Positions 24,384 through 34,926 of a stretch of DNA of 64,000 bases are shown here, piece after piece. The DNA comes from Paenibacillus thiaminolyticus (GTDB lineage Bacteria; Bacillota; Bacilli; Paenibacillales; Paenibacillaceae), in the NCBI RefSeq assembly GCF_007066085.1, contig NZ_CP041405.1:5088501-5152500 (forward strand), written 5' to 3'. Under the pieces are notes generated by a model. The model had not been told where the DNA came from. It saw only the letters and a program-made list of their open reading frames with translations, and made no database searches. The translations under genes and the position numbers were made by a program. Positions within the stretch are counted from its first letter, which is position 1, and each line of letters starts with the position of its first letter.

Positions 24384-24545
24384 CTATGGCGTTCTTCGTC
24401 CCGTGAAGAGGGAGAGCACGAACAGAATCAGGAACAGGAAGAACAGGACTTTGGCAATGGACGCCGCGGCCTCCACAATGCCGAAAAACCCGAATACCCC
24501 GGCAATGATTGCGATAATCAAAAAAATGACGGACCATCTTAGCAT
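24384..24545 (-). CDS. DUF1328-family small membrane protein (YtjA-like)
   Basis: A 53-residue protein made of two membrane helices. It begins [20 protein letters not shown] and continues [19 protein letters not shown], the whole DUF1328 pattern; E. coli YtjA is a relative. AAAGGAGTGG precedes the ATG at 24545, which fixes the start against longer frames. Function is unknown, but such proteins are often stress-induced. A SigB-like promoter (24633-24659) points at it, and the opposite-strand DUF948 gene has a matching divergent one, so both probably belong to the SigB regulon encoded 8 kb downstream. Confidence 0.85.
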
Positions 24546-24632: not shown

Positions 24633-24659
24633 ATAACCGGTCTTCAGCCGGAATGAAAC
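24633..24659 (-). promoter_or_regulatory. Candidate SigB-type promoter of the DUF1328 gene
   Basis: Read on the minus strand, GTTTCA and GGTTAT are 15 bp apart, against a Bacillus SigB consensus near GTTTAA-N12/15-GGGTAT. The leader to the start codon would be about 80 nt. Confidence 0.5.
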
Positions 24660-24673
24660 AAATGAATAAAGCT

Positions 24674-24699
24674 GTTTCACAAGCGGCCTATACGGGTAC
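24674..24699 (+). promoter_or_regulatory. Candidate SigB-type promoter of the DUF948 gene
   Basis: GTTTCA and GGGTAC are 14 bp apart, a close match to the SigB consensus, about 90 bp ahead of the start codon. It diverges from the similar element at 24633-24659. Confidence 0.55.
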
Positions 24700-24790
24700 T
24701 AAATGGATGATTTCATGGCAACATGCACATCCGTTTTGCAAATAGATGATTGGGTTCACATTTATACAGAGAGAGAAAGGCGGAGATGTT

Positions 24791-25399
24791 ATGCTAGTTG
24801 AAATCAGCGCGCTGATCGCGGCGCTGGCCTTTGCCGTGTTGGTCGTCTTCCTGATTCAGACGCTGCGGTCAGCCAAGCACTCGCTCGACAAGGCGTCTAG
24901 GACGATGGAGGATGTGCAGCAGACCGTGCAGATGCTGAGCGGGGATCTGCAGGCGATCGCGCGGAATGCCAACCATATGACCGAGGAATTGCAGGGACAA
25001 TTGAAGAAGATCGAGCCTGTGGCCGATTCGGTCCAGAATGCCGGAGAAGCCTTGAATGAATTGACGCTGGCCGCGAAGCAAGTCTCGGTCGGCTTCGTCA
25101 GCGGCGTCCGCAAAGCGGCGAGCCGCTTCGAGAAGAAGCGCCAGGACGGGCCGGCACCGGGCAGCCAGCCGGCGAACGCGGGAGGCTCTTATGCGGGCAG
25201 CCCGGCACCCGGCGGACAGGCCGCTTCTCCGGTGCAGGACGGGGTGCCCGGAGCAAGCTCCGCTTCCGCGCTGCCGCTCGCGGCCGCAGCTGCAGAGCAC
25301 CCGCAACCGGGAGCGGCGGCGAAGCAGGGCGGGGACGATTGGAAGGCCTGGGTCGATCTGGGGATTCGCGCATGGCAGCTGTGGAGACAACGAAGCTAG
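24791..25399 (+). CDS. DUF948-family protein
   Basis: A 202-residue protein with one N-terminal membrane helix (about residues 3-25). A helical, coiled-coil-like stretch follows (SLDKASRTMEDVQQTVQML and so on), as in DUF948 general-stress proteins of Bacillus such as YtxG. The tail from about residue 120 is low-complexity Ala/Gly/Pro/Gln and ends in a short amphipathic WKAWVDLGIRAWQLWRQR segment. ATG 24791 follows AAAGGCGGAG. In Bacillus, YtxG lies with YtxH and is SigB-controlled; here a YtxH gene occurs at 34516, also with a SigB-like promoter. Confidence 0.8.
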   Translation: MLVEISALIAALAFAVLVVFLIQTLRSAKHSLDKASRTMEDVQQTVQMLSGDLQAIARNANHMTEELQGQLKKIEPVADSVQNAGEALNELTLAAKQVSVGFVSGVRKAASRFEKKRQDGPAPGSQPANAGGSYAGSPAPGGQAASPVQDGVPGASSASALPLAAAAAEHPQPGAAAKQGGDDWKAWVDLGIRAWQLWRQRS

Positions 25400-25405
25400 T
25401 TATCC

Positions 25406-25437
25406 AGCCGGACTAACGGTTACGTTAGCCGGCTTTT
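25406..25437 (+). terminator. Terminator after the DUF948 gene
   Basis: AGCCGGACTAACG pairs with CGTTAGCCGGCT with one bulge, then TTTT. Confidence 0.75.
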
Positions 25438-25572: not shown

Positions 25573-26715
25573 ATGTTGAACGTACTTGTTGTCGACGATA
25601 ATCCGACCAATGTGATGCTGATTCGGGAGATCCTTCGGAAGGCAGGCTATACGGGGGTGCAATCCGCCTCTTCAGCGAGGGAAATGTATGAGGTGTTAGG
25701 GCTGGAAGGACCGGTAGGTCCGCTGTATGTGCCGGATATTGATCTCATTTTGCTGGATATGATGATGCCTGAGATTGACGGGCTGGAGGCATGCCGGACC
25801 ATTCAGCAGTATTCCGAGCTGCGGGATATTCCGATCATTATCGTGACGGCGATCGGCGATTCGCATATGCTGGCCGAAGCGCTGGACGCGGGAGCGGCCG
25901 ACTACGTGACGAAGCCGATCAACCGCATCGAGCTGCTCGCCCGCATCCGGCTGGCCCTTCGCTTGAAGCAGGAGAAGGACTGGCATAAGCAACGCGACCG
26001 CCATATCCGGGAGGAGCTGCGCCTCGCCGCCCGGGTCCAGAGCTCGGTGCTGACGGAGCCGCTCTCCGATGAGCGGATTACGATAGACGCCCTCTATCAG
26101 CCGTCCGAGGAGCTGGCTGGAGATCTGTATGCCTGGTTCAAGCTGGGGGAGGGCCGGTACGGCATCATGATTATCGACATGATGGGGCATGGCGTCTCCT
26201 CCGCGCTGCTGTGCATGTTCATCGCCTCGGTCCTGAGGGACGCGGTGGTGCAGACCGAGCAGCCGGACATGGTGTTGAAGCGGTTGAACACGAAGTTCCA
26301 CCAGCTTCATATGAGCGGGAATCTGATGCTGTATTATATGACGGCGCTCTATGTCGTCGTCGATACGAACGAGCGCACGATCCAATATGCCAATGCGGGC
26401 CACCCGCCGGGAATCGTCATGATGGAGGACGGCCGGATGGTGACGCTGGAGTCGACAGGGTATCCTGTCGGTATGTTCCCCGAGCTGGAAGTGGATACCC
26501 ATGCGCTCAAATTCGATTCGCGGGCGAGAATCGCACTGTATACCGACGGGCTGCTGGAATCGGCGGGCGCAACCGTGGAGAGCGCGATGGAGCGGATAGG
26601 AGCGCTGTTGAAGCAAGAACCATCCTTGAAAAGCCAAGCTTGGGACGAGCTGCTCCACCCGCCCGGAAAAGAGAGCGAGGACGATAAATGCCTCGTATGG
26701 GCCGACATTCATTAA
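25573..26715 (+). CDS. Response regulator with PP2C phosphatase domain (RsbY-like)
   Basis: A 380-residue protein with an N-terminal receiver (about 1-125) and a C-terminal PP2C/SpoIIE phosphatase (about 150-375). The receiver has VVDDNPTN, phospho-acceptor Asp62 in LLDMMMPEIDG, and the Lys in YVTKP. The phosphatase has GDLYAWFKL and IIDMMGHGVSSALL metal-binding motifs. In B. cereus, RsbY has this architecture: once phosphorylated by RsbK it dephosphorylates RsbV, freeing SigB. The hybrid kinase lies 18 bp downstream and RsbV-RsbW-SigB about 6 kb downstream, so the same role is likely. ATG 25573 follows GGGGAGGAGAAGG; the longer frame from 25483 adds unrelated residues. Confidence 0.92.
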   Translation: MLNVLVVDDNPTNVMLIREILRKAGYTGVQSASSAREMYEVLGLEGPVGPLYVPDIDLILLDMMMPEIDGLEACRTIQQYSELRDIPIIIVTAIGDSHMLAEALDAGAADYVTKPINRIELLARIRLALRLKQEKDWHKQRDRHIREELRLAARVQSSVLTEPLSDERITIDALYQPSEELAGDLYAWFKLGEGRYGIMIIDMMGHGVSSALLCMFIASVLRDAVVQTEQPDMVLKRLNTKFHQLHMSGNLMLYYMTALYVVVDTNERTIQYANAGHPPGIVMMEDGRMVTLESTGYPVGMFPELEVDTHALKFDSRARIALYTDGLLESAGATVESAMERIGALLKQEPSLKSQAWDELLHPPGKESEDDKCLVWADIH

Positions 26716-26733
26716 GCAGAGGGGGAGCAAGCG

Positions 26734-29700
26734 TTGAAGCTGCGTACGAAGCTCATCATCGGCTATGTCATGTTCATGATCATCATTCTCGCATTGGGCG
26801 GGTATTCGTTTGCCCAGATGGGCGGCCTGAAGCAAGACCTTGATCATTTCTACCAGGACAGCTTCCGGAAGGTTGAGCTGGCGCTGGCGGCGCGGGACGA
26901 TGCCAATGCGATTGCCCGTGACCTGGTGACCGAGCTGCTCAATCCGGATAAGGCGGATCAGACGGGCAGAGAAGTGCTGGATAAGGTCGACGGCTACAAG
27001 GAGCGGATCAACCGCTCCCTGGAAGAGCTGACCCGGCAAGCGGCGAAGGCCGAAGAGAAGCAGATGGTGGAGGCGGCGCTTCACGATTGGGGCCGGTACG
27101 ATCAATTCGTGATCGATGCAATTCGGCTGAGCATGGAGAACGAGTATGAGCAAGCGAACCAGCTCCGCAATGAATACGGGCTTGATTATCAGAACTATTT
27201 GTTGAACAGCCTGGGCGATCTGGCCCGCTACCATGAAGCGATAATGGAAGATCAGGTGACGGCCGCGACCGGTACGTATGAAGCCGCCCTGACTTGGACA
27301 GCAGCAATTATGCTGATCGGAATTGTCGTGACCGCAGCGGTCATGCTGTGGGTCATTCCGAGCGTCACGCGCAATCTGAATACGATGTCGGTTATGATGC
27401 GGAGCCTGGCCCGCGGACGGATGCGCGTCATTCAGAAGCTGGAGCCGCATACGAATGATGAGATTGGGGAAGTCATCGATGTCTTCAAGCAGATGGCCGA
27501 GGACATCGAGAGACGGAAGCGGAGCGAGGAGCAGTTCCGGTTGATGCAGGAGGAACAAGCCTGGATGGATGCCAATATCGCCCGCGTGACGGAGCTGTTG
27601 CACGGTGCGACGACCTTGAACCAGGTCGGGGAGACGTTCGTAAGCGAGTTCGTGCCGACGCTGGGCGCGCAATACGGGGCGCTGTATATCCGGGATGACC
27701 TGAAGAACCCGAACTGGCTTCATCTGTGCGGCGCCTATGCGGCCAACGGCAGCCTCCAGGCCGAGACAGGCTTCCGCGTCGGCGAAGGCTTGGTCGGACA
27801 GTGCGCGCATGACGAGAAGCCGATCTATATTCATGATTTGAAAAACAGTTCGCTGCGCATCCAGAGCGGGATTTGCGATACAGCCCCGGTGGAGCTCGTG
27901 GTCTATCCGATCATCTTCGAAGCTACGGTCATTGCCGTGCTGGAGCTGGCGTCCGTGTCGCCGCTGACGAACAAGGAGCAGCAGCTGCTTGAGCAGCTCG
28001 CAGACAAGCTGGGCGTCATTATCCACACCATATCCGGACGGCTGCGCGTCGAGGAATTGCTGCGCGAGTCGCAGACGCTGACGGAGGAACTGCAGTGCCA
28101 GTCCGAGGAGCTGCTGACGCAGCAAGAAGAGATGCGGCGCTCGAACGAGCATCTGGAATCCCAGACCGAGGCGTTGAGGCGGTCAGAGGAGATGCTGCAG
28201 CGCCAGCAGGAGGAACTGGAGCACTACAATACGGAACTCATCGCGAAGACGCGCGCGTTGGAAGAGCAGATGCTGGCCTCGCAGGAGAAGAACGAGGAGC
28301 TGGAGGGCGCCCGCAAGGAGCTGGAGCGCCAGGCGCTCCGGCTTGCGCTCGCTTCCAAGTACAAATCGGAATTCCTGGCGAACATGTCGCATGAATTGCG
28401 GACGCCGCTGAACAGTCTGCTCGTCCTGTCCCAGCTTCTCTCCGAGAACAAGGAGGGCAATCTGCAGCAGAAGCAGATCGAGTATGCGCGTACGATTCAT
28501 ATGTCCGGATCGGATCTGTTGAAAATGATTGACGAGATTTTGGACTTGTCCAAAGTTGACGCGGGCCAAATGCAGCTGAACTATGAAAAGGTGCATTTGT
28601 CGGAGCTGACAGCCTATATCCGTGACAGCTTCTCCGAGATCGCTTCACAAAAAGGCCTCCGGCTTGAAGTCCATATGGATGAGAACGTGCGGGACAGCCT
28701 GATGACCGATGGGCACCGTGTCATGCAGATTATCCGCAATCTGATGTCCAATGCGGTCAAATTCACGAACCGCGGAAGCGTCGCTTTCCATATCGGAATG
28801 GCGGCGGAGGAAGAGATTCCGTCCCATATCCGCAAGGAGGGAATGCCTTTCTTCGCGCTGCGGGTGACGGATACCGGAATTGGAATTCCGGAGGAGAAGC
28901 AGGACCTGATCTTCGAAGCGTTCCAGCAGCTGGACGGCACGACCAGCCGGAAGTACGGCGGAGCCGGGCTGGGGTTGTCCATCAGCCGGGAACTCGCCCG
29001 TCTGTTGGGCGGAACGCTTACGGTGGAGAGCAAGGAGAAGGAGGGCAGCACCTTCACCTTCTATTTGCCGGTTCAAGCGACCAAGCAGCCGGAAGCAATG
29101 GAGGGCAGCGTCCGTCTCATCGACCAATGGAATGAGAAGGCGATGGCGTCTGCGGCGGCGGAATTATCCGCAGCGGCAGGATCATCTCCAGCGGAAGGAC
29201 CATCCGTAGCGTATCCGGATGAGGAGCAAGAAGACGATGAGCCGGCGGCTTCGCCCGATCGGACGTGGAAGAAGCCGTATCGGGAGTGGGACAACGCGGT
29301 GATGCATGAGGCCGCTGCAGCCGAGGAGCAGGAGCAGAAGCGGGAGCGGGTATGGCCGCTGGAGCGGAAGAAGCTGCTCATCGTGGAAGACGACGGTCCG
29401 CAGCGGCAGTCGCTGATCGCGCTCATCGAGGGCGCCGATGTGGAAGTGCATGCCGTCTCGACCGGGACGGAGGCGCTGAAGTCGCTGGCAGACACGAAGT
29501 ACGACGGCCTGGTGCTGGATCTGCTGCTGCCTGACATGAACGGATTCGAGCTGCTGGACAGCATGGGCGCTCATGCGGAACTGAGCAAGGTTCCGGTTAT
29601 TGTATACACGGGCAAGCTGCTGGACAAGAAGGAAGAGCTGGAGCTGAAGAAGCGCGCCCGGAGCATCATTATCAAGGATGTGAAGTCGCCGGAGCGGCTG

Positions 29701-30165
29701 CTTCAGGAGACAATGCTGCTGCTGAACCGGTCCGGAGAAGCGGAAGCGGGGGCGCGCGCCAGCGGGCACGCATCGAAGGATCAGCTGCTGGCAGGCAAGC
29801 GCATCCTGCTCGTCGATGACGATGTGCGCAACGTATTCGCTCTGTCCAGCGTGCTGGAGCAGTACGAAATGGACATCGTCTACGCGGAGAACGGCCAAGA
29901 AGCCATCGAGGCGCTGACCGGGGATCCGGAGCATTTCGATCTGGTCCTGATGGATATGATGATGCCGGAAATGGACGGCTACGAGGCGATGCGCCTCATT
30001 CGTAAGATGCCTTCGTTCGAGAAGCTCCCGATCATTGCCCTGACCGCCAAGGCGATGAAGGAAGACCGCAACAAATGCATTGAAGCCGGGGCTTCCGACT
30101 ACGTGAGCAAGCCGTTCCAGACGGATCAGCTGCTATCGCTGATGCGGGTCTGGCTGTACAAGTAG
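26734..30165 (+). CDS. Hybrid sensor histidine kinase with two receivers (RsbK-like)
   Basis: A 1143-residue membrane kinase. Order of parts: membrane helix (8-28), extracytoplasmic helical sensor (30-185), membrane helix (188-208), HAMP (205-262), GAF (285-435), long Gln/Glu-rich coiled coil (435-545), then HisKA with His553 in MSHELRTPLN. HATPase follows with Asn-box NLMSNAVKF, DTGIGIP and YGGAGLGLSIS, an acidic linker (800-870), receiver 1 (Asp929) and receiver 2 (Asp1074). B. cereus RsbK has helices, CHASE3, HAMP, GAF, kinase and one receiver; a second receiver is extra here. TTG 26734 follows GAGGGGGAGC. It probably phosphorylates the RsbY-like protein upstream. Confidence 0.9.
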   Translation: MKLRTKLIIGYVMFMIIILALGGYSFAQMGGLKQDLDHFYQDSFRKVELALAARDDANAIARDLVTELLNPDKADQTGREVLDKVDGYKERINRSLEELTRQAAKAEEKQMVEAALHDWGRYDQFVIDAIRLSMENEYEQANQLRNEYGLDYQNYLLNSLGDLARYHEAIMEDQVTAATGTYEAALTWTAAIMLIGIVVTAAVMLWVIPSVTRNLNTMSVMMRSLARGRMRVIQKLEPHTNDEIGEVIDVFKQMAEDIERRKRSEEQFRLMQEEQAWMDANIARVTELLHGATTLNQVGETFVSEFVPTLGAQYGALYIRDDLKNPNWLHLCGAYAANGSLQAETGFRVGEGLVGQCAHDEKPIYIHDLKNSSLRIQSGICDTAPVELVVYPIIFEATVIAVLELASVSPLTNKEQQLLEQLADKLGVIIHTISGRLRVEELLRESQTLTEELQCQSEELLTQQEEMRRSNEHLESQTEALRRSEEMLQRQQEELEHYNTELIAKTRALEEQMLASQEKNEELEGARKELERQALRLALASKYKSEFLANMSHELRTPLNSLLVLSQLLSENKEGNLQQKQIEYARTIHMSGSDLLKMIDEILDLSKVDAGQMQLNYEKVHLSELTAYIRDSFSEIASQKGLRLEVHMDENVRDSLMTDGHRVMQIIRNLMSNAVKFTNRGSVAFHIGMAAEEEIPSHIRKEGMPFFALRVTDTGIGIPEEKQDLIFEAFQQLDGTTSRKYGGAGLGLSISRELARLLGGTLTVESKEKEGSTFTFYLPVQATKQPEAMEGSVRLIDQWNEKAMASAAAELSAAAGSSPAEGPSVAYPDEEQEDDEPAASPDRTWKKPYREWDNAVMHEAAAAEEQEQKRERVWPLERKKLLIVEDDGPQRQSLIALIEGADVEVHAVSTGTEALKSLADTKYDGLVLDLLLPDMNGFELLDSMGAHAELSKVPVIVYTGKLLDKKEELELKKRARSIIIKDVKSPERLLQETMLLLNRSGEAEAGARASGHASKDQLLAGKRILLVDDDVRNVFALSSVLEQYEMDIVYAENGQEAIEALTGDPEHFDLVLMDMMMPEMDGYEAMRLIRKMPSFEKLPIIALTAKAMKEDRNKCIEAGASDYVSKPFQTDQLLSLMRVWLYK

Positions 30166-30210
30166 ACGGGTATCCCTTGTCAAGATGACACAGACATGAA
30201 GGAGTATGGG

Positions 30211-31083
30211 ATGGAGATGACAGGCAGAGAAACCGGGCGGAACCGTGAGGAACCTCGTCCGCATGATTCGGATCGGGAGCGAGTAGAAATCGAACTGCTC
30301 CTGGAAGGAATTTATCGGGTCTATGGTTACGATTTTCGGGACTATGCCTTTCCTTCTCTCCAACGGCGAATCTGGCATCAAGTATACACCGAGCAGGTGG
30401 AGACAATCTCCGAATTGCAAAGCCGCGTGCTTCATAACCGGGACAGCCTGCAGAGGCTCGTTCACAGCCTGTCCATTCCGGTGACGGAGATGTTCCGCGA
30501 TCCCCAGATGTTCGGCGCATTTCGCCGCACCGTCGTTCCTTTGCTCCGGACCTACCCGTATATCCGCATCTGGCACGCCGGCTGCTCGACCGGGGAGGAG
30601 GTCTACTCGATGGCCATCCTTCTTCACGAGGAAGGGCTGTACGAGAAGACGAGACTGTATGCGACCGACATGAATTCGCGTTCGCTGCGCATCGCCAAGG
30701 ACGGTATCTGCCCCCTGGACAAAATGAGATTGTACACCAAAAACTATATGGAAGCGGGCGGCACCCGTTCCTTCTCCGAATATTATACGGCTTCCGGAGA
30801 TGGGGTCGTCATCCATCCCGATTTGCGCAAAAACATTATTTTTGCCGAGCATAACTTGGCGACGGACCGTTCCTTCAATGAGTTCAATGTCATTCTCTGC
30901 CGCAATGTCATGATCTATTTCAACGAACCGCTGCGCAACCGGGTGCATGAGCTGTTCTACGAGAGCCTCGCCCCGCTGGGCGTGCTCATTGTCGGCGCCA
31001 AGGAATCGCTGCATTTCACGGTGCATGAAGCGCGCTATGAGGAGATGGACCGGAACGAGAAGATTTATCGCAAAATACGGTAG
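30211..31083 (+). CDS. CheR-type SAM-dependent methyltransferase (RsbM-like)
   Basis: A protein of about 290 residues of the CheR family, which methylates glutamates in coiled coils of chemoreceptors. An N-terminal helical domain (RRIWHQVYTEQVETISELQSR) precedes the SAM-binding fold: VTEMFRDPQMF, WHAGCSTGEEVYSMAILL, LYATDMNSRSL and IILCRNVMIYFNEP-like VILCRNVMIYF. There is no CheB, CheW or chemoreceptor nearby. In B. cereus, RsbM is a CheR-type enzyme that methylates RsbK and damps SigB; position right after the RsbK-like gene supports that role. AAGGAG at 30199 favours ATG 30211 over ATG 30196. Confidence 0.88.
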   Translation: MEMTGRETGRNREEPRPHDSDRERVEIELLLEGIYRVYGYDFRDYAFPSLQRRIWHQVYTEQVETISELQSRVLHNRDSLQRLVHSLSIPVTEMFRDPQMFGAFRRTVVPLLRTYPYIRIWHAGCSTGEEVYSMAILLHEEGLYEKTRLYATDMNSRSLRIAKDGICPLDKMRLYTKNYMEAGGTRSFSEYYTASGDGVVIHPDLRKNIIFAEHNLATDRSFNEFNVILCRNVMIYFNEPLRNRVHELFYESLAPLGVLIVGAKESLHFTVHEARYEEMDRNEKIYRKIR

Positions 31084-31095
31084 GAGGTACTGCGG

Positions 31096-32310
31096 ATGAC
31101 TACCTTGGAACCGATAAATATACTGTTGGTCGATGACAGACCTGAAAATCTGCTGGCGCTGGAGGCGGTCCTGTCCGAAGAAAGCTACCGCCTGGTCAAG
31201 GCAACGTCGGGCGAGGAGGCGCTGCGCCATCTGATGAAGAGCGAATTCGCCGTCATTGTCCTCGACGTTCAAATGCCCGGCATGGACGGCATCGAGACCG
31301 CCAAGTGGATTAAAGCGCGGGAAAAGACGAAAAACATCCCGATCATCTTCGTATCCGCCAACTACAAAGAGACCGAGCATCTCTTCGCCGGCTATTCGGC
31401 AGGCGGGATAGATTACATGATCAAGCCATTTGTCCCCCATATTCTCAAATCCAAAATCCACAGCTTCGTCGGCATGTTCCTGGCGCAGAAGCGGCTTCAA
31501 GCGCAGAAGATGCTCCTTCACCAGAAGACCCAGGAGCTGGAGCGGATGAACCGCGAGCTGGCTGCGGCGAAGGAGGCCGCCGAACGCGCCGCTCTCGCCC
31601 GCACGCAGTTCCTGGCCATGATGAGCCATGAGATCCGGACCCCGATGAACGGAGTGCTCGGCATGGTCGACTTGCTGATGGATACCGAGCTCTCTCCCGA
31701 GCAGGGGAATTATGCCGAGATGATCCGGAAGAGCGCGGATGCGCTCATTCGGACGATCAACAACATTCTCGACTTCACGAAGATGGAATCGGGCAAGCTG
31801 GAGCTGGACGAATTCCCGTTCGACGGCACAGCGCTCGTCACGGAAGTGTATGAGTTGTTCACTCCGGAAGCGAGCAAGCGCGATTTGAATCTGACGTACA
31901 CGATTGCGCCCGACGTGCCGAATTGTCTCTACGGCGACATGTTCCGGCTGCGGCAGATTCTCGTCAACCTGGTCGGGAACGCCGTCAAATTCACTGACAG
32001 CGGCGAGGTCGAGATCCACATCTCTCTTCTGCCGGGACGGCAGGGAGATGCGGACCGGGAACGGGTGAAGGTCCAATTTGAAGTGAAGGATTCGGGCGTC
32101 GGCATTCCCGAGAATAAAATGGACGGGCTGTTCCAGCCGTTCTCCCAGCTGGATTCATCGATGAACCGCAAGTATGGCGGAAGCGGGCTCGGACTCGCGA
32201 TCTGCAAATCGCTCGTCCATATGATGCAGGGAGATATCCGCACCGTTCCGGTAGAGGAAGGCGCATTGTTCGTCTTCCATGTATGGCTGGGGATATGCGA
32301 GGAGCCGTAG
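31096..32310 (+). CDS. Receiver-histidine kinase hybrid
   Basis: A 404-residue soluble protein, with a receiver first (about 5-125; [10 protein letters not shown], phospho-acceptor Asp57 in [17 protein letters not shown]) and then a coiled-coil linker. HisKA (His178 in [12 protein letters not shown]) and HATPase ([28 protein letters not shown]) follow. It has no membrane segment, so it must take its signal from another protein through its receiver. It lies between the CheR-type and RsbV genes and 12 bp after the former. A likely role is a side input or phosphate sink for the RsbK-RsbY pathway; this gene is not part of the classical B. cereus set. GTAGGAGGTACTGCGG precedes ATG 31096. Confidence 0.9.
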
Positions 32311-32323
32311 GATTTGTTTCGAT

Positions 32324-32349
32324 GTTTCGGGCCCTCGTATTTCGGTTAT
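32324..32349 (+). promoter_or_regulatory. Candidate SigB-type promoter of rsbV-rsbW-sigB
   Basis: GTTTCG and GGTTAT are 14 bp apart and about 60 bp ahead of rsbV. The -10 is identical to the one facing the DUF1328 gene. It would allow the sigma factor to drive its own operon, as in Bacillus. Confidence 0.5.
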
Positions 32350-32409
32350 TTACGTTACAGTGAGGGGATTAGATTAGAACCTAGAAGTCGTGAGTTAGGA
32401 GAGGAAGCT

Positions 32410-32730
32410 ATGAACGGCAATAAATTCAATGTAACGATGCAGCAAGACGAACATCAAGTGACAGCGCATTTGCAAGGGGACCTGGACTTGGCGGCCGCAG
32501 GGGAGTTCCGCAGCCTGCTGGAGCCGATTGTCAATGACCCGGCATTGGATTTGACGCTGGATCTGCAGAAGCTTACCTATATCGACAGCACCGGGATCGG
32601 GATTCTCATCTCCGTGCTGAAGCTTCGGAAGGAGCAGCAGGCGCCGTTCCGCATCGTTCATGTGCCGCAGCAGATTCAGAAGCTGTTCGATATGACGGGG
32701 ATTTCGAAGTTCTTGACACCGAACGCATAA
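32410..32730 (+). CDS. rsbV: Anti-sigma factor antagonist (RsbV, STAS domain)
   Basis: A 106-residue single STAS-domain protein. The phosphorylation loop IDSTGIGILIS places the target serine at residue 60. Unphosphorylated RsbV binds RsbW and releases SigB; RsbW phosphorylates and PP2C enzymes dephosphorylate that serine. ATG 32410 follows AGGAGAGGAAGC. The rsbW start is only 30 bp downstream. SpoIIAA-like function in sporulation is an alternative, but the sigma factor two genes on matches the SigB/SigF group without a linked SpoIIA context. Confidence 0.92.
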   Translation: MNGNKFNVTMQQDEHQVTAHLQGDLDLAAAGEFRSLLEPIVNDPALDLTLDLQKLTYIDSTGIGILISVLKLRKEQQAPFRIVHVPQQIQKLFDMTGISKFLTPNA

Positions 32731-32759
32731 ATTTAAGGGATTATGAAAGGGAATGACTT

Positions 32760-33218
32760 ATGGAAAATGACAGAGAACGGAAGCAAATCAAGTTAATTCT
32801 TCCCGCGCAAGCGGCATATGTCGATCTGGCCCGTCTGACGCTGTACGGCATTGCAAGCCGCATCGGGTTCTCTTACGAGGATATCGAGGATATGAAGGTC
32901 GCCATCTCCGAGGCCTGCAACAACGCGGTATTATACGCTTATCGAACGACGCAGGGGATGGTCGAGATTGTTTTCGAGGAGGGGCCGGACGAGATTGGCA
33001 TCATGGTCAAGGACGAGGGCGGCAGCTTCGATGCGGACAGCAAGACGAGCGGCTTGCGCGGATGGCATGAGAAGAGCCTGGACGAGGTGGAGGCCGGGGG
33101 GCTCGGGTTCTACCTGATGCAGGCGCTGATGGATGATGTGGAAGTGATGAGCACGGAGGGGCGAGGTACTGTTGTCAAAATGCGCAAGCGACTTTTGAAA
33201 AGTGGAGAACTGCTATGA
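32760..33218 (+). CDS. rsbW: Anti-sigma factor and serine kinase (RsbW)
   Basis: A 152-residue GHKL-type kinase. The N-box reads SEACNNAVLYAY, the Asp-box VKDEGGSFD and the glycine-rich lid GLGFYLMQALMDDV. RsbW either holds SigB inactive or, bound to RsbV, phosphorylates it. The C-terminal GTVVKMRKRL strand is usual. GAAAGGGAATG precedes ATG 32760. Its stop overlaps the sigB start by four bases (ATGA), the coupling expected for a sigma/anti-sigma pair. The adjoining Gly between the Asp-box and the lid shows no degradation of the active site. Confidence 0.93.
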   Translation: MENDRERKQIKLILPAQAAYVDLARLTLYGIASRIGFSYEDIEDMKVAISEACNNAVLYAYRTTQGMVEIVFEEGPDEIGIMVKDEGGSFDADSKTSGLRGWHEKSLDEVEAGGLGFYLMQALMDDVEVMSTEGRGTVVKMRKRLLKSGELL

Positions 33219-33985
33219 GCGAGCCCTCCCGGCATGGACCAACGGAAGATGCGAATCAGCTCATCAGTGCTTATCAAGAGACGCAGGACAACGATATCGC
33301 CACGATACTCATCCACAAGTATGAGCCCATGGTCAAGATGGCCGCCGGCAAAATTTCGCGCAACCGTCCCGATTTATATGAAGACCTGATGCAGGTCGGG
33401 AATATGGCATTGATTCGTCTGCTGCAGCAATTCGACAGCTCCTTAGGCGTGCCCTTCGAAGCTTATGCGATGAAGAGCATGATCGGTCATATGAAAAATT
33501 TCCTCCGGGACAAGTCGTGGTATATTCAAGTGCCGCGGCGAATCAAGGAGAAGGGGGCCCTCATTCAGCAGACGATCGACGAATTGACCGTTCAACTGGA
33601 ACGTTCGCCGAATGTGGAGGAGATTGCGGAGCGGCTGGAACTATCCGTTGAGGAAACGGTCGAAGTACTAGCTGGCCGGGAATGCTATCACTATGTGTCG
33701 CTGGACACGCCATTGTCGCAGGAAGAGAGCGCGGCAACACTAGGGGAGCTGATCAGCTCGGACAGCAACGATTACGAAGCAGTCGAGCGCCGGATGGATC
33801 TGAGCGATGCCATGGCATCGCTCAAAGCGGAAGAGCGGCAGGTGCTTGCCCTCGTATTCGAGGAAGGGCTGTCTCAACGTGCGGCCGCGGAACGGCTCGG
33901 GGTATCCCAGATGAGCGTCTCGCGGATTCAACGCAGAGCCACCGACAAGCTTCGGCATATCCTATCTTCCCGCTATGACGGATAG
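33215..33985 (+). CDS. sigB: SigB/SigF/SigG-family RNA polymerase sigma factor
   Basis: A 256-residue sigma-70 factor with region 2 (about 35-110; YEDLMQVGNMALIRLLQQFD, then YAMKSMIGHMKNFLRD), region 3 (WYIQVPRRIKEKGALIQQ) and region 4 (ALVFEEGLSQRAAAERLGVSQMSVSRIQRRA). Overlap with rsbW and linkage to RsbY/K/M-like genes identify it as the general-stress sigma rather than SigF or SigG. ATG 33215 lies in the stop of rsbW. A hairpin about 30 bp after the stop probably ends the operon. Candidate target promoters in this window begin with GTTTC(A/G). Confidence 0.92.
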   Translation: MSEPSRHGPTEDANQLISAYQETQDNDIATILIHKYEPMVKMAAGKISRNRPDLYEDLMQVGNMALIRLLQQFDSSLGVPFEAYAMKSMIGHMKNFLRDKSWYIQVPRRIKEKGALIQQTIDELTVQLERSPNVEEIAERLELSVEETVEVLAGRECYHYVSLDTPLSQEESAATLGELISSDSNDYEAVERRMDLSDAMASLKAEERQVLALVFEEGLSQRAAAERLGVSQMSVSRIQRRATDKLRHILSSRYDG

Positions 33986-34093: not shown

Positions 34094-34501
34094 TCAATCT
34101 GTCATGGCTTGAACCTGTCTCATCCTCGCTGCGCGCGATGCGAGGGCATGGAGCAGATCCGCATCGGGAGCGGAAGGCTCCATGCAGGGAACGCTGAGCT
34201 TGCGCTCGAGTTGGGCGCACAGCTTCGACAGGATCGTCCACGCTCTTGCTTGTATGGCTTCCGGTACAGGCGCGTTGCTCGAGAAGCCCGCCAAGCCGGC
34301 TTCGACATGCAATGCTCCGTTCGCCAGCTTGACGGCCGGAACGGTGAACATATGGCTTGCCCTTTCGGTGTCAAGCGCCTCGTTCATTAGACCCAGTACG
34401 AAGACTTCTTGCTCGCTGCACTGAATACCGGTGAAGCCGTGCCGCAAAAATAATTTGCGCACGGCTTCGGCCTGAGCAGAGACCGGAGGTATCGGCGTCA
34501 T
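34094..34501 (-). CDS. Conserved-looking protein of unknown function
   Basis: A 135-residue soluble protein that I do not recognise. It has no signal peptide or membrane segment. The N-terminal half reads like an alpha/beta fold (LFLRHGFTGIQCSEQEVFVLGL), and three cysteines are spread through it without a motif. ATG 34501 has GGGAGG seven bases ahead, while ATG 34507 is too close to it. It starts 14 bp after the YtxH gene on the same strand, so it is probably cotranscribed with YtxH and shares its stress promoter. Confidence 0.65.
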   Translation of the reverse strand: MTPIPPVSAQAEAVRKLFLRHGFTGIQCSEQEVFVLGLMNEALDTERASHMFTVPAVKLANGALHVEAGLAGFSSNAPVPEAIQARAWTILSKLCAQLERKLSVPCMEPSAPDADLLHALASRAARMRQVQAMTD

Positions 34502-34515
34502 TCCCATTCCTCCCG

Positions 34516-34881
34516 TCAGTTCGAGTTCAGTTGACTCGCCACTTCATCCGCCACATCGGCGGAAGCTTCCTTCAACTGCGTTGTCGCCTCGGATGCGGCG
34601 TCCTTCACGGTAGCCGTAACCTGATGGGACGCATCCTTCATGCTGTTAACGACCGCTTCGGCCTTGCTGCCGACCGACTTGACGGCATCAGCGGTCTTCG
34701 TGCCGAGATCACAGGCGATATCCTTCGTCTTCTCGCCCACCTTCTGCGCCGTGTCGCACAGATCGGAACGCAATTCGCGGCCCGGCTTCGGTGCCAGCAG
34801 CAGGGCAGCTGCCGCGCCGATAATGCCGCCAACAATGGCGCCTTTCAAAAATACGCTGGAATTGTTATTATTTTCACTCAC
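34516..34881 (-). CDS. YtxH-domain general stress protein
   Basis: A 121-residue protein with a glycine/alanine membrane anchor, FLKGAIVGGIIGAAAALLLA, then PKPGRELRSDL, the hallmark of YtxH (general stress). The rest is a polar amphipathic helix with repeated KxxxDxxSxxxxQLKEA-type spacing, as in LEA-like stress proteins. GTG 34881 follows AAGGAG by nine bases; ATG 34890 is too close. In Bacillus ytxH is transcribed by SigB. Here a SigB-like promoter (34927-34952) lies about 45 bp upstream and the sigB gene is only 0.5 kb away, on the other strand. Confidence 0.88.
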   Translation of the reverse strand: MSENNNNSSVFLKGAIVGGIIGAAAALLLAPKPGRELRSDLCDTAQKVGEKTKDIACDLGTKTADAVKSVGSKAEAVVNSMKDASHQVTATVKDAASEATTQLKEASADVADEVASQLNSN

Positions 34882-34926
34882 TATGGTCATCTCCTTGTAC
34901 GTCATTCGTTGCTATCTACCATACGA

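Follow-up and report, generated by a model that had tools for sequence, protein, structure and literature searches.

The 64-kb stretch of Paenibacillus thiaminolyticus DNA analysed here (the window, 5.09-5.15 Mb of a 6.6-Mb single-contig genome) carries at 25573-33985 of its forward strand seven genes in the order rsbY, rsbK, rsbM, RH, rsbV, rsbW and sigB, RH being a REC-kinase, that is, a kinase that begins with a receiver domain. An earlier note on this DNA had described them as an RsbK-RsbM-RsbY-like signalling block feeding a SigB operon, with an added kinase and an added second receiver. The locus raises the question of whether these two parts were grafted onto a Bacillus cereus-type stress system. 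Receiver comparison and synteny did not support either addition and reverse the apparent history: both parts most likely belong to an older module, from which the pairing of RsbM with a single-receiver kinase most likely arose by reduction. We propose, with a probability of about 0.72, that the block is a general-stress control operon in which an RsbM-damped RsbK would signal to RsbY and have RH as a second target.

Relatives were collected as 80 stretches of up to 20 kb, 80 named loci (the best 80 of 593 confirmed, by RsbM similarity, an uneven sample) and 30 further stretches. Gene calls outside the window were mechanical and used profiles built up from its own proteins, and the search for RH, CheB and the kinase reached no further than 6-7 kb from CheR; the Bacillota rows come mostly from one family, and some contigs end near CheR.

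The seven-gene block and its SigB output

Open reading frames and Pfam matches bore out the seven contiguous genes, their common strand and their order. The first, rsbY (25573..26715, + strand), encodes a 380-residue protein made of a REC and a SpoIIE/PP2C domain, with phospho-acceptor Asp62 and a match to PDB entry 3eq2. It is followed after 18 nucleotides (nt) by rsbK (26734..30165, +), which starts with TTG and encodes a 1143-residue hybrid kinase of the domain order 4HB_MCP_1-HAMP-GAF-HisKA-HATPase-REC-REC with His553, and after a further 30 nt by rsbM (30196..31083, +), whose 295-residue CheR_N-CheR product was assigned as a CheR-type methyltransferase from Pfam, an alignment of 13 relatives and a match to the PDB CheR structure 5ftw; its start is unsure, the homologues in this alignment mostly matching from about residue 22 onward. 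Only 12 nt, without a CheB gene, separate rsbM from RH (31096..32310, +), which encodes a 404-residue REC-HisKA-HATPase kinase with Asp57 and His178, assigned from Pfam and motif positions, and with neither sensor nor membrane segment. The last three genes encode the STAS protein RsbV, an anti-anti-sigma factor (32410..32730, +; 106 residues, Ser60 in an IDSTG motif), the anti-sigma factor and kinase RsbW (32760..33218, +; HATPase_c_2) and the sigma factor SigB (33215..33985, +; sigma-70 regions 2, 3 and 4).

RsbV scored 54.6 bits with the anti-sigma-B antagonist 6m36_B, with whose MDSTG motif the Ser of its IDSTG motif aligns, against 37.8 with an anti-sigma-F antagonist, and in NCBIfam only the superfamily model TIGR00377 passed. 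Similarly, RsbW scored 113.8 bits with RsbW 6m36_A against 50.4 with anti-sigma F and exceeded one of two NCBIfam RsbW cut-offs, that of NF003144 (160.4 versus 145), and the Sigma_B family TIGR02941 was, at a score below its cut-off, the best of 65 families for SigB (222.5 bits, SigF 129.1). A multi-sensor kinase with GAF, signalling helix (S-helix), histidine kinase core and C-terminal REC, a CheR-type gene adjoining it, and a REC-PP2C gene with rsbV-rsbW-sigB are thus found in one locus. Domains, family and structure matches and gene order together support the RsbK-RsbM-RsbY-type input to an RsbV-RsbW-SigB partner switch that had been suggested. The seven-gene order is not due to chance, because it recurs in related genomes: it is present in 12 of the 13 own-genus loci inspected (the exception, L057, has no called kinase gene) and in related loci, of which L133-L136 are four named ones that include Paenibacillus pini and P. 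massiliensis. RsbM-type CheR at 63% identity or more occurs in 18/19 genomes of the genus; at E<=1e-45, it was found in 116/148 genomes of the family sample and in 10/299 of the phylum sample, family members included.

Between RH and rsbV lies a SigB-type promoter of rsbV-rsbW-sigB, GTTTCGGGCCCTCGTATTTCGGTTAT (32324..32349, +), matching the pattern GTTTCR, 12-15 nt, GGKWAW, which was written after this site had been seen. ATG 32410 is the most likely start of rsbV; a longer frame starts with TTG, and this extension (32314-32409) is probably non-coding because the promoter site falls inside it. In the groups of the CheR tree described below, such a site precedes rsbV in 22/28 clade A loci (window included) and 10/11 clade B loci, against 0.1% of shuffles. 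Elsewhere it was found before rsbY in 8/67 cases, before sigB in 0/55 and before the kinase gene in 3/124, and a looser promoter scan gave 32/54 for rsbV and 8/56 for rsbY. As judged from these matches, the SigB output looks autoregulated from 32324-32349.

Regarding other inputs to SigB, the genome has three STAS matches, namely RsbV, a 141-residue frame beside an RsbW/SpoIIAB-type gene and a 588-residue frame. There are two HATPase_c_2 matches of RsbW length, and the 141-residue frame together with the second of them is presumably the SpoIIAA/SpoIIAB pair. No RsbR/RsbS stressosome STAS protein was found in the genome by the same STAS search that was positive in B. subtilis. The SpoIIE-family PP2C matches are RsbY (135 bits), an 838-residue frame (128.8 bits) that is presumably SpoIIE, and two weak ones (25.6 and 21.5). 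Because neither a stressosome nor a strong PP2C besides RsbY and the presumed SpoIIE was found, the seven-gene block is probably the main input of SigB.

Receivers, REC-kinase and history of the module

In RsbK, hydrophobic segments at about residues 1-32 and 183-213 flank an outer four-helix (4HB) domain, which scored as 4HB_MCP_1, CHASE3 not being among the matches at E<=0.001. HAMP, GAF, a helix of about 100 residues, HisKA, HATPase and two receivers follow. This S-helix (residues 434-535; 28033..28338, +) reads as heptads of the TEELQCQSEEL type and, by analogy with B. cereus RsbK (PMC4574943), is the presumed methylation region. Glu and Gln make up 34% of residues 435-545 against 16% of the whole kinase, a figure that, with the heptads, supports the earlier proposal of this Gln/Glu-rich helix as the likely methylation target. 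An S-helix is present in all 36 kinases inspected (of 37 picked) and mostly opens with [TS]EELQ.Q-like repeats, exceptions including Sediminibacterium, Chitinophaga and one Spirochaetales row. The length from GAF to H-box is 77, 84, 91, 98, 112-113, 119-120 or 126 residues in 26/36 kinases, in steps near seven, and 99-107, 114 or 147 residues in the remaining 10. Within the genome itself, 17 other matches to RsbK (E<=1e-20) all begin at kinase residue 498 or beyond, none of them spanning GAF and most of the helix.

The two receivers of RsbK, which as had been stated carry Asp929 and Asp1074 in canonical motifs, are receiver beta (about residues 880-1000, LVLD929LLLP; 29371..29733, +) and receiver gamma (residues 1022-1143, VLMD1074MMMP; 29797..30162, +). 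They were compared among 178 receivers from 48 picked loci, four shorter than 95 residues being excluded and the three nearest rows being scored. In three-receiver kinases, these nearest rows were of the same kind in 72/72 comparisons for the first receiver, 63/63 for the second and 68/72 for the third; for the single receivers of one-receiver kinases they were of their own kind in 50/54 and otherwise gamma (4/54). Outside the genus, the nearest relatives of receiver beta are the second receivers of three-receiver kinases (57% identity to the kinase of locus L060 over 119 residues), and receiver gamma groups with the third ones. Receiver alpha is absent from the window kinase, an Ala/Glu-rich linker (about residues 785-879; 29086..29370, +) standing in the place that it occupies in sister genera, so that receivers 2 and 3 of the three-receiver form are kept. 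In some other two-receiver kinases the first receiver is nearer to alpha. Loci with a B. cereus-like gene order appear by this comparison to keep receiver 3 only, and they mostly lack RH.

A simple hydropathy scan gave no hydrophobic segment for RH, in agreement with its earlier description as membrane-free, and this kinase has the hybrid-response-regulator build of the PakF/LvrB type, with an N-terminal REC, a kinase core and no sensor. The N-terminal receivers of 37 RH proteins, drawn from the 48 picked loci and from several phyla, are mutually nearest in 111/111 nearest-three comparisons, as expected of a kept partner, and the description of RH as having no obvious partner is accordingly doubtful for these CheR-neighbouring kinases. 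Behind this receiver, the kinase part differs among lineages, and RH of the genus lacks the C-terminal receiver seen in RH of sister genera. In the 27 listed clade A loci RH is placed between rsbM and rsbV, mostly with a short gap to rsbM, and the H-box and G2 box are kept in both RsbK and RH (27/27). One-receiver Bacillota loci contain RH without RsbY in 36 cases, RsbY without RH in 31, both in 1 and neither in 9. A mutual replacement of RH and RsbY is not claimed from these counts (2 independent tree pairs, 5 on all branches; sign test p=1), and a derivation of the RsbY receiver from RH was rejected, as the two receivers group apart and have 30% identity. The REC-kinases of L071 and L108 contain a PAS domain. 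Many of the Bacillota loci L286, L288-L295 and L298-L306 have a kinase-CheR-REC-kinase triad and no SigB or PP2C gene in the stretch.

A CheR tree of 153 rows, built by a quick method, rooted on two distant presumed chemotaxis CheR and cleared of ten near-duplicate loci, separates the module from these two CheR and places the window in a 22-row clade A, with a Shimodaira-Hasegawa-like approximate likelihood-ratio test (SH-aLRT) value of 97. The SigB-linked rows form three groups, A (the window's), B and C, of which clade C mostly has one receiver and no RH, with many loci in the order kinase, RsbM and facing RsbY. In the RsbY and SigB trees the 22 clade A rows stay together and the three groups are nearly intact; L137 is near B by its RsbM, yet its RsbY falls among C. 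A single joining of the module to SigB was rejected: monophyly of the 33 SigB/PP2C-linked RsbM rows, a group first seen on an earlier tree and then tested, gave a p value of 0.0031 in the approximately unbiased test (p-AU; 66 rows, quick tree). SigB linkage changed at least 4 times on the tree, gain and loss not being distinguishable. Two genomes of the genus (G004 and G012) carry, besides the seven-gene cluster, a second, clade C-like kinase-RsbM pair (L104, L105) with no SigB in the stretch. In clade B, an opposite-strand gene of about 408-424 residues separates the module from rsbV in L081, L083, L084, L095, L101 and L124.

Outside Bacillota, the neighbourhood of CheR (59 loci) contains a stand-alone CheB in 55 cases and RH in 38, with no PP2C or SigB gene in the stretches; in Bacillota (102 loci) it contains CheB in 2, RH in 66, PP2C in 56 and SigB in 53, both sets excluding the 30 further stretches. 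Three CheB frames were confirmed with Pfam. The two Bacillota loci of the 102 in which CheB still accompanies the module CheR are L110 and L111 (G325 and G192), from two distant families. The other Bacillota loci lack CheB whether or not they are linked to SigB, so that the loss of CheB does not depend on that link. A related kinase, CheR and REC-kinase in this order, as in the Cfc system, are found in Pseudomonas putida locus L161, which we infer from species and gene order to be the cfc locus with CfcD as its REC-kinase; its identity to the window is 59% for the DHp domain, 61% for receiver gamma, 48% for beta, 52% for RsbM and 35% for RH. Taken together, kinship and synteny suggest that the most likely ancestor of RsbK, RsbM and RH is a module of many phyla consisting of a three-receiver kinase, CheR, CheB and a REC-kinase. 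This module probably predates its SigB link, and the B. cereus-like order is most likely a reduced form, a direction read from quick trees with a distant outgroup.

Proposed mechanism and its alternatives

RsbK, with its outer four-helix sensor and GAF domain, would autophosphorylate at His553. In unstressed cells, RsbM would methylate the Glu/Gln-rich helix and, with the C-terminal receiver or receivers, hold the kinase off; under stress, RsbK would phosphorylate Asp62 of RsbY, whose PP2C domain would dephosphorylate Ser60 of RsbV, and RsbV would then take RsbW off SigB. SigB would transcribe its own operon from 32324-32349 and flanking stress genes. RH is most likely a second target of RsbK: phosphorylation of Asp57 would turn on its kinase, and the signal would branch off towards RsbY or a different regulator. 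CheB and receiver alpha of the presumed ancestor are missing here, and SigB output genes would have been joined to the module.

Several observations weigh against this reading. The link to B. cereus RsbK/RsbM/RsbY, drawn from domains, synteny and relatives that include Lysinibacillus, is a probable one, and the window RsbM lies outside the clade with the B. cereus-like order in a tree that has no B. cereus row. SigB scores below the Sigma_B family cut-off (222.5 versus 315) and RsbW below that of TIGR01924 (135.7 versus 155.05). Outside clades A and B, the SigB-type site precedes rsbV in 0/15 loci, and the genome as a whole shows no enrichment of the pattern (7 matches versus 12 for the reversed pattern), so that the local promoter footprints are good and a regulon list for the genome is not. 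The receivers of RsbY and RH are only 30% identical in the window, and a common phosphodonor is therefore not obvious. Strict N-box and G1 patterns match RsbK in 5/27 and 20/27 clade A loci and RH in 16/27 and 23/27, and the strict H-box pattern matches 54/123 RH proteins, so that the RH kinases differ. In P. putida, mutants in the other cfc genes keep the tested phenotype, a result stated as unpublished (PMC4951495), and RH may be dispensable.

Instead of branching at RsbK, the signal could run in series, RsbK phosphorylating mainly the receiver of RH and activated RH phosphorylating RsbY, with weak or no transfer from RsbK to RsbY, a possible arrangement that we rate well below even odds. 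It agrees with the cohesion of the 37 RH receivers across several phyla in front of differing kinase parts. The KipF-PakF pair reportedly feeds the general stress response. The corresponding transfer is known from LvrA, which phosphorylates the LvrB receiver and thereby raises LvrB autokinase activity, a pair likened to KipF-PakF (PMC5863495). It fits poorly with one-receiver loci that have RsbY, of which 31 lack RH and 1 has it, with RH in 36 one-receiver and 13 three-receiver loci where no RsbY was found, with the low identity of the two receivers and with the P. putida mutants. Somewhat more doubtful still is a fuller version, in which RsbK, the RH receiver and RsbY would form a two-tier cascade under an irreversible methylation brake, CheB would have been lost in Bacillota so that the RsbM mark is relieved only by receiver phosphorylation or newly made RsbK, and B. 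cereus RsbKMY would descend, by a reduction of its own, from the ancient CheR/CheB-controlled module that drives cyclic di-GMP signalling in Pseudomonas.

RsbK might also pass phosphate to RH and to receiver beta so as to limit phosphorylated RsbY, RH acting mainly as a phosphatase or competitor. The acceptor Asp is kept in both RsbK receivers, and the C-terminal receiver of B. cereus RsbK is inhibitory, with no relay step (PMC4574943); a mere sink, however, would not need the H-box and G2 box that RH keeps in 27/27 clade A loci, and we consider this role unlikely. To a similar degree we doubt that RH and RsbKM serve a second, unlinked output and that RH owes its place in the sigB operon to descent from the ancestral module alone: kinase-CheR-RH triads do exist without a SigB or PP2C gene in the stretch, and the output of the P. 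putida relative is a diguanylate cyclase (PMC4951495), but RH stands between rsbM and rsbV in 27 clade A loci with mostly short gaps to rsbM. It is highly improbable that the block is a remnant of a chemosensory (Che) array. The CheR-type methyltransferase and the 4HB_MCP_1 sensor domain would suit such an origin, but the seven proteins have no CheA, CheB, CheW or methyl-accepting chemotaxis protein (MCP) signalling domain by Pfam, and the only further CheR in the genome, with 31% identity to RsbM, lies outside the module clade of the CheR tree. These results support the earlier argument against chemotaxis; its premise that no CheB, CheW or chemoreceptor is encoded holds for the block but not genome-wide, as a single CheB match is located 1.1 Mb away.

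Flanking genes and comparison with known systems

The genes flanking the block include candidates for SigB control. Exact SigB-type matches in the window number 2 against 0.15 expected. One of them, GTTTCATTCCGGCTGAAGACCGGTTAT (24633..24659, - strand), precedes a 53-residue DUF1328 small membrane protein (24384..24545, -; Pfam PF07043, 51.3 bits), a probable SigB regulon gene, which was found by motif in 23/86 scanned loci, 18 of the 23 having a SigB-type site upstream. A site with 1 mismatch, GTTTCACAAGCGGCCTATACGGGTAC (24674..24699, +), precedes a 217-residue, YtxG-like DUF948 protein (24746..25399, +; Pfam PF06103, 80.4 bits), which is a probable regulon member; 26/27 loci have such a site at <=1 mismatch, 15 of them exact. 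Downstream of the block, a YtxH protein (34516..34905, -; Pfam PF12732) is a possible regulon member, with a 1-mismatch site, GTTTCAAAAGTGGTAAATGAGTGTAA (34952-34927, -), shared at 1 mismatch by 16/27 loci, none exact. As background, 8/426 segments of 300 nt in the window have a site with <=1 mismatch. An initial pattern modelled on SigB sites of B. subtilis was discarded (1 match versus 1.48 expected), and sigma-70 promoters (7 versus 4.2) and simple terminators (7 versus 6.3) were not clearly above shuffles. A stem-loop with one bulged base followed by TTTT (25407..25437, +), read by eye and missing from the simple-terminator list, is a possible terminator between DUF948 and rsbY. On the 3' side of sigB, a 137-residue frame (34094-34507, -) has no Pfam or NCBIfam match and no SigB-type site at <=2 mismatches.

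The RsbK-RsbM-RsbY core is already known in Paenibacillus, RsbKY with RsbM having been reported in two genomes (PMC9847131), and the two-kinase architecture is unreported in the literature searched. Likewise, this literature, with most subscription papers outside it, contains no description of a module common to RsbK and Cfc; the available text of one open paper covering both CfcA and RsbK compares their CHASE3 sensing. RsbK-like kinases number 127 in ten phyla, as cited in PMC4574943; rsbK and rsbM homologues occur in 17/244 mycobacteria, with a cyanobacterial origin suggested for that rsbK (PMC8115616), and in Mycobacterium smegmatis a kinase paired with a REC-type PP2C acts on SigF, with no RsbM (PMC10950880). 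HmrABCX of Caulobacter was considered as a relative and, from the text available, is not this module.

With B. subtilis, where SigB is fed by the stressosome and RsbU and by RsbQ-RsbP, the window shares the RsbV-RsbW-SigB output and the PP2C logic, but no RsbR/RsbS-like STAS proteins were found in its genome. The sensor-less REC-kinase is shared with LvrA-LvrB of Leptospira and KipF-PakF of Sphingomonas, where a partner kinase feeds it, a step that is proposed for the window; the available text mentions no methyltransferase for these pairs. The kinase type of PakF differs from that of RH. B. cereus has the kinase and methyltransferase genes facing rsbY, an order also seen in Lysinibacillus-type loci, whereas the window has seven genes on one strand. 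Common to both are a membrane sensor-HAMP-GAF-S-helix hybrid kinase, an adjoining CheR-type gene, REC-PP2C and RsbV-RsbW-SigB; the window kinase has two receivers (beta and gamma) rather than one, and RH is extra. Its outer domain scored as 4HB_MCP_1, whereas CHASE3 is named for B. cereus, where RsbK is inhibited jointly by its receiver and by RsbM, which methylates the S-helix (PMC4574943). How the inhibition by RsbM is lifted there without a cognate methylesterase is an open question (PMC4574943), and a module with CheB in most sampled non-Bacillota and without it in nearly all sampled Bacillota offers a natural comparison for the removal of the RsbM mark.

The P. putida cfcABCDE locus has, like the window, a hybrid kinase gene (CfcA) followed by CheR, and then by CheB and the REC-containing CfcD (PMC4951495), whose receiver is 48% identical to that of CfcR, both being proposed targets of CfcA (PMC4951495). 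The window differs in being without CheB and receiver alpha and in its output, which is REC-PP2C and SigB instead of the GGDEF/EAL regulator CfcR. B. cereus-type stress control would thus be tied to the Pseudomonas Cfc module through their common kinase, CheR and REC-kinase.

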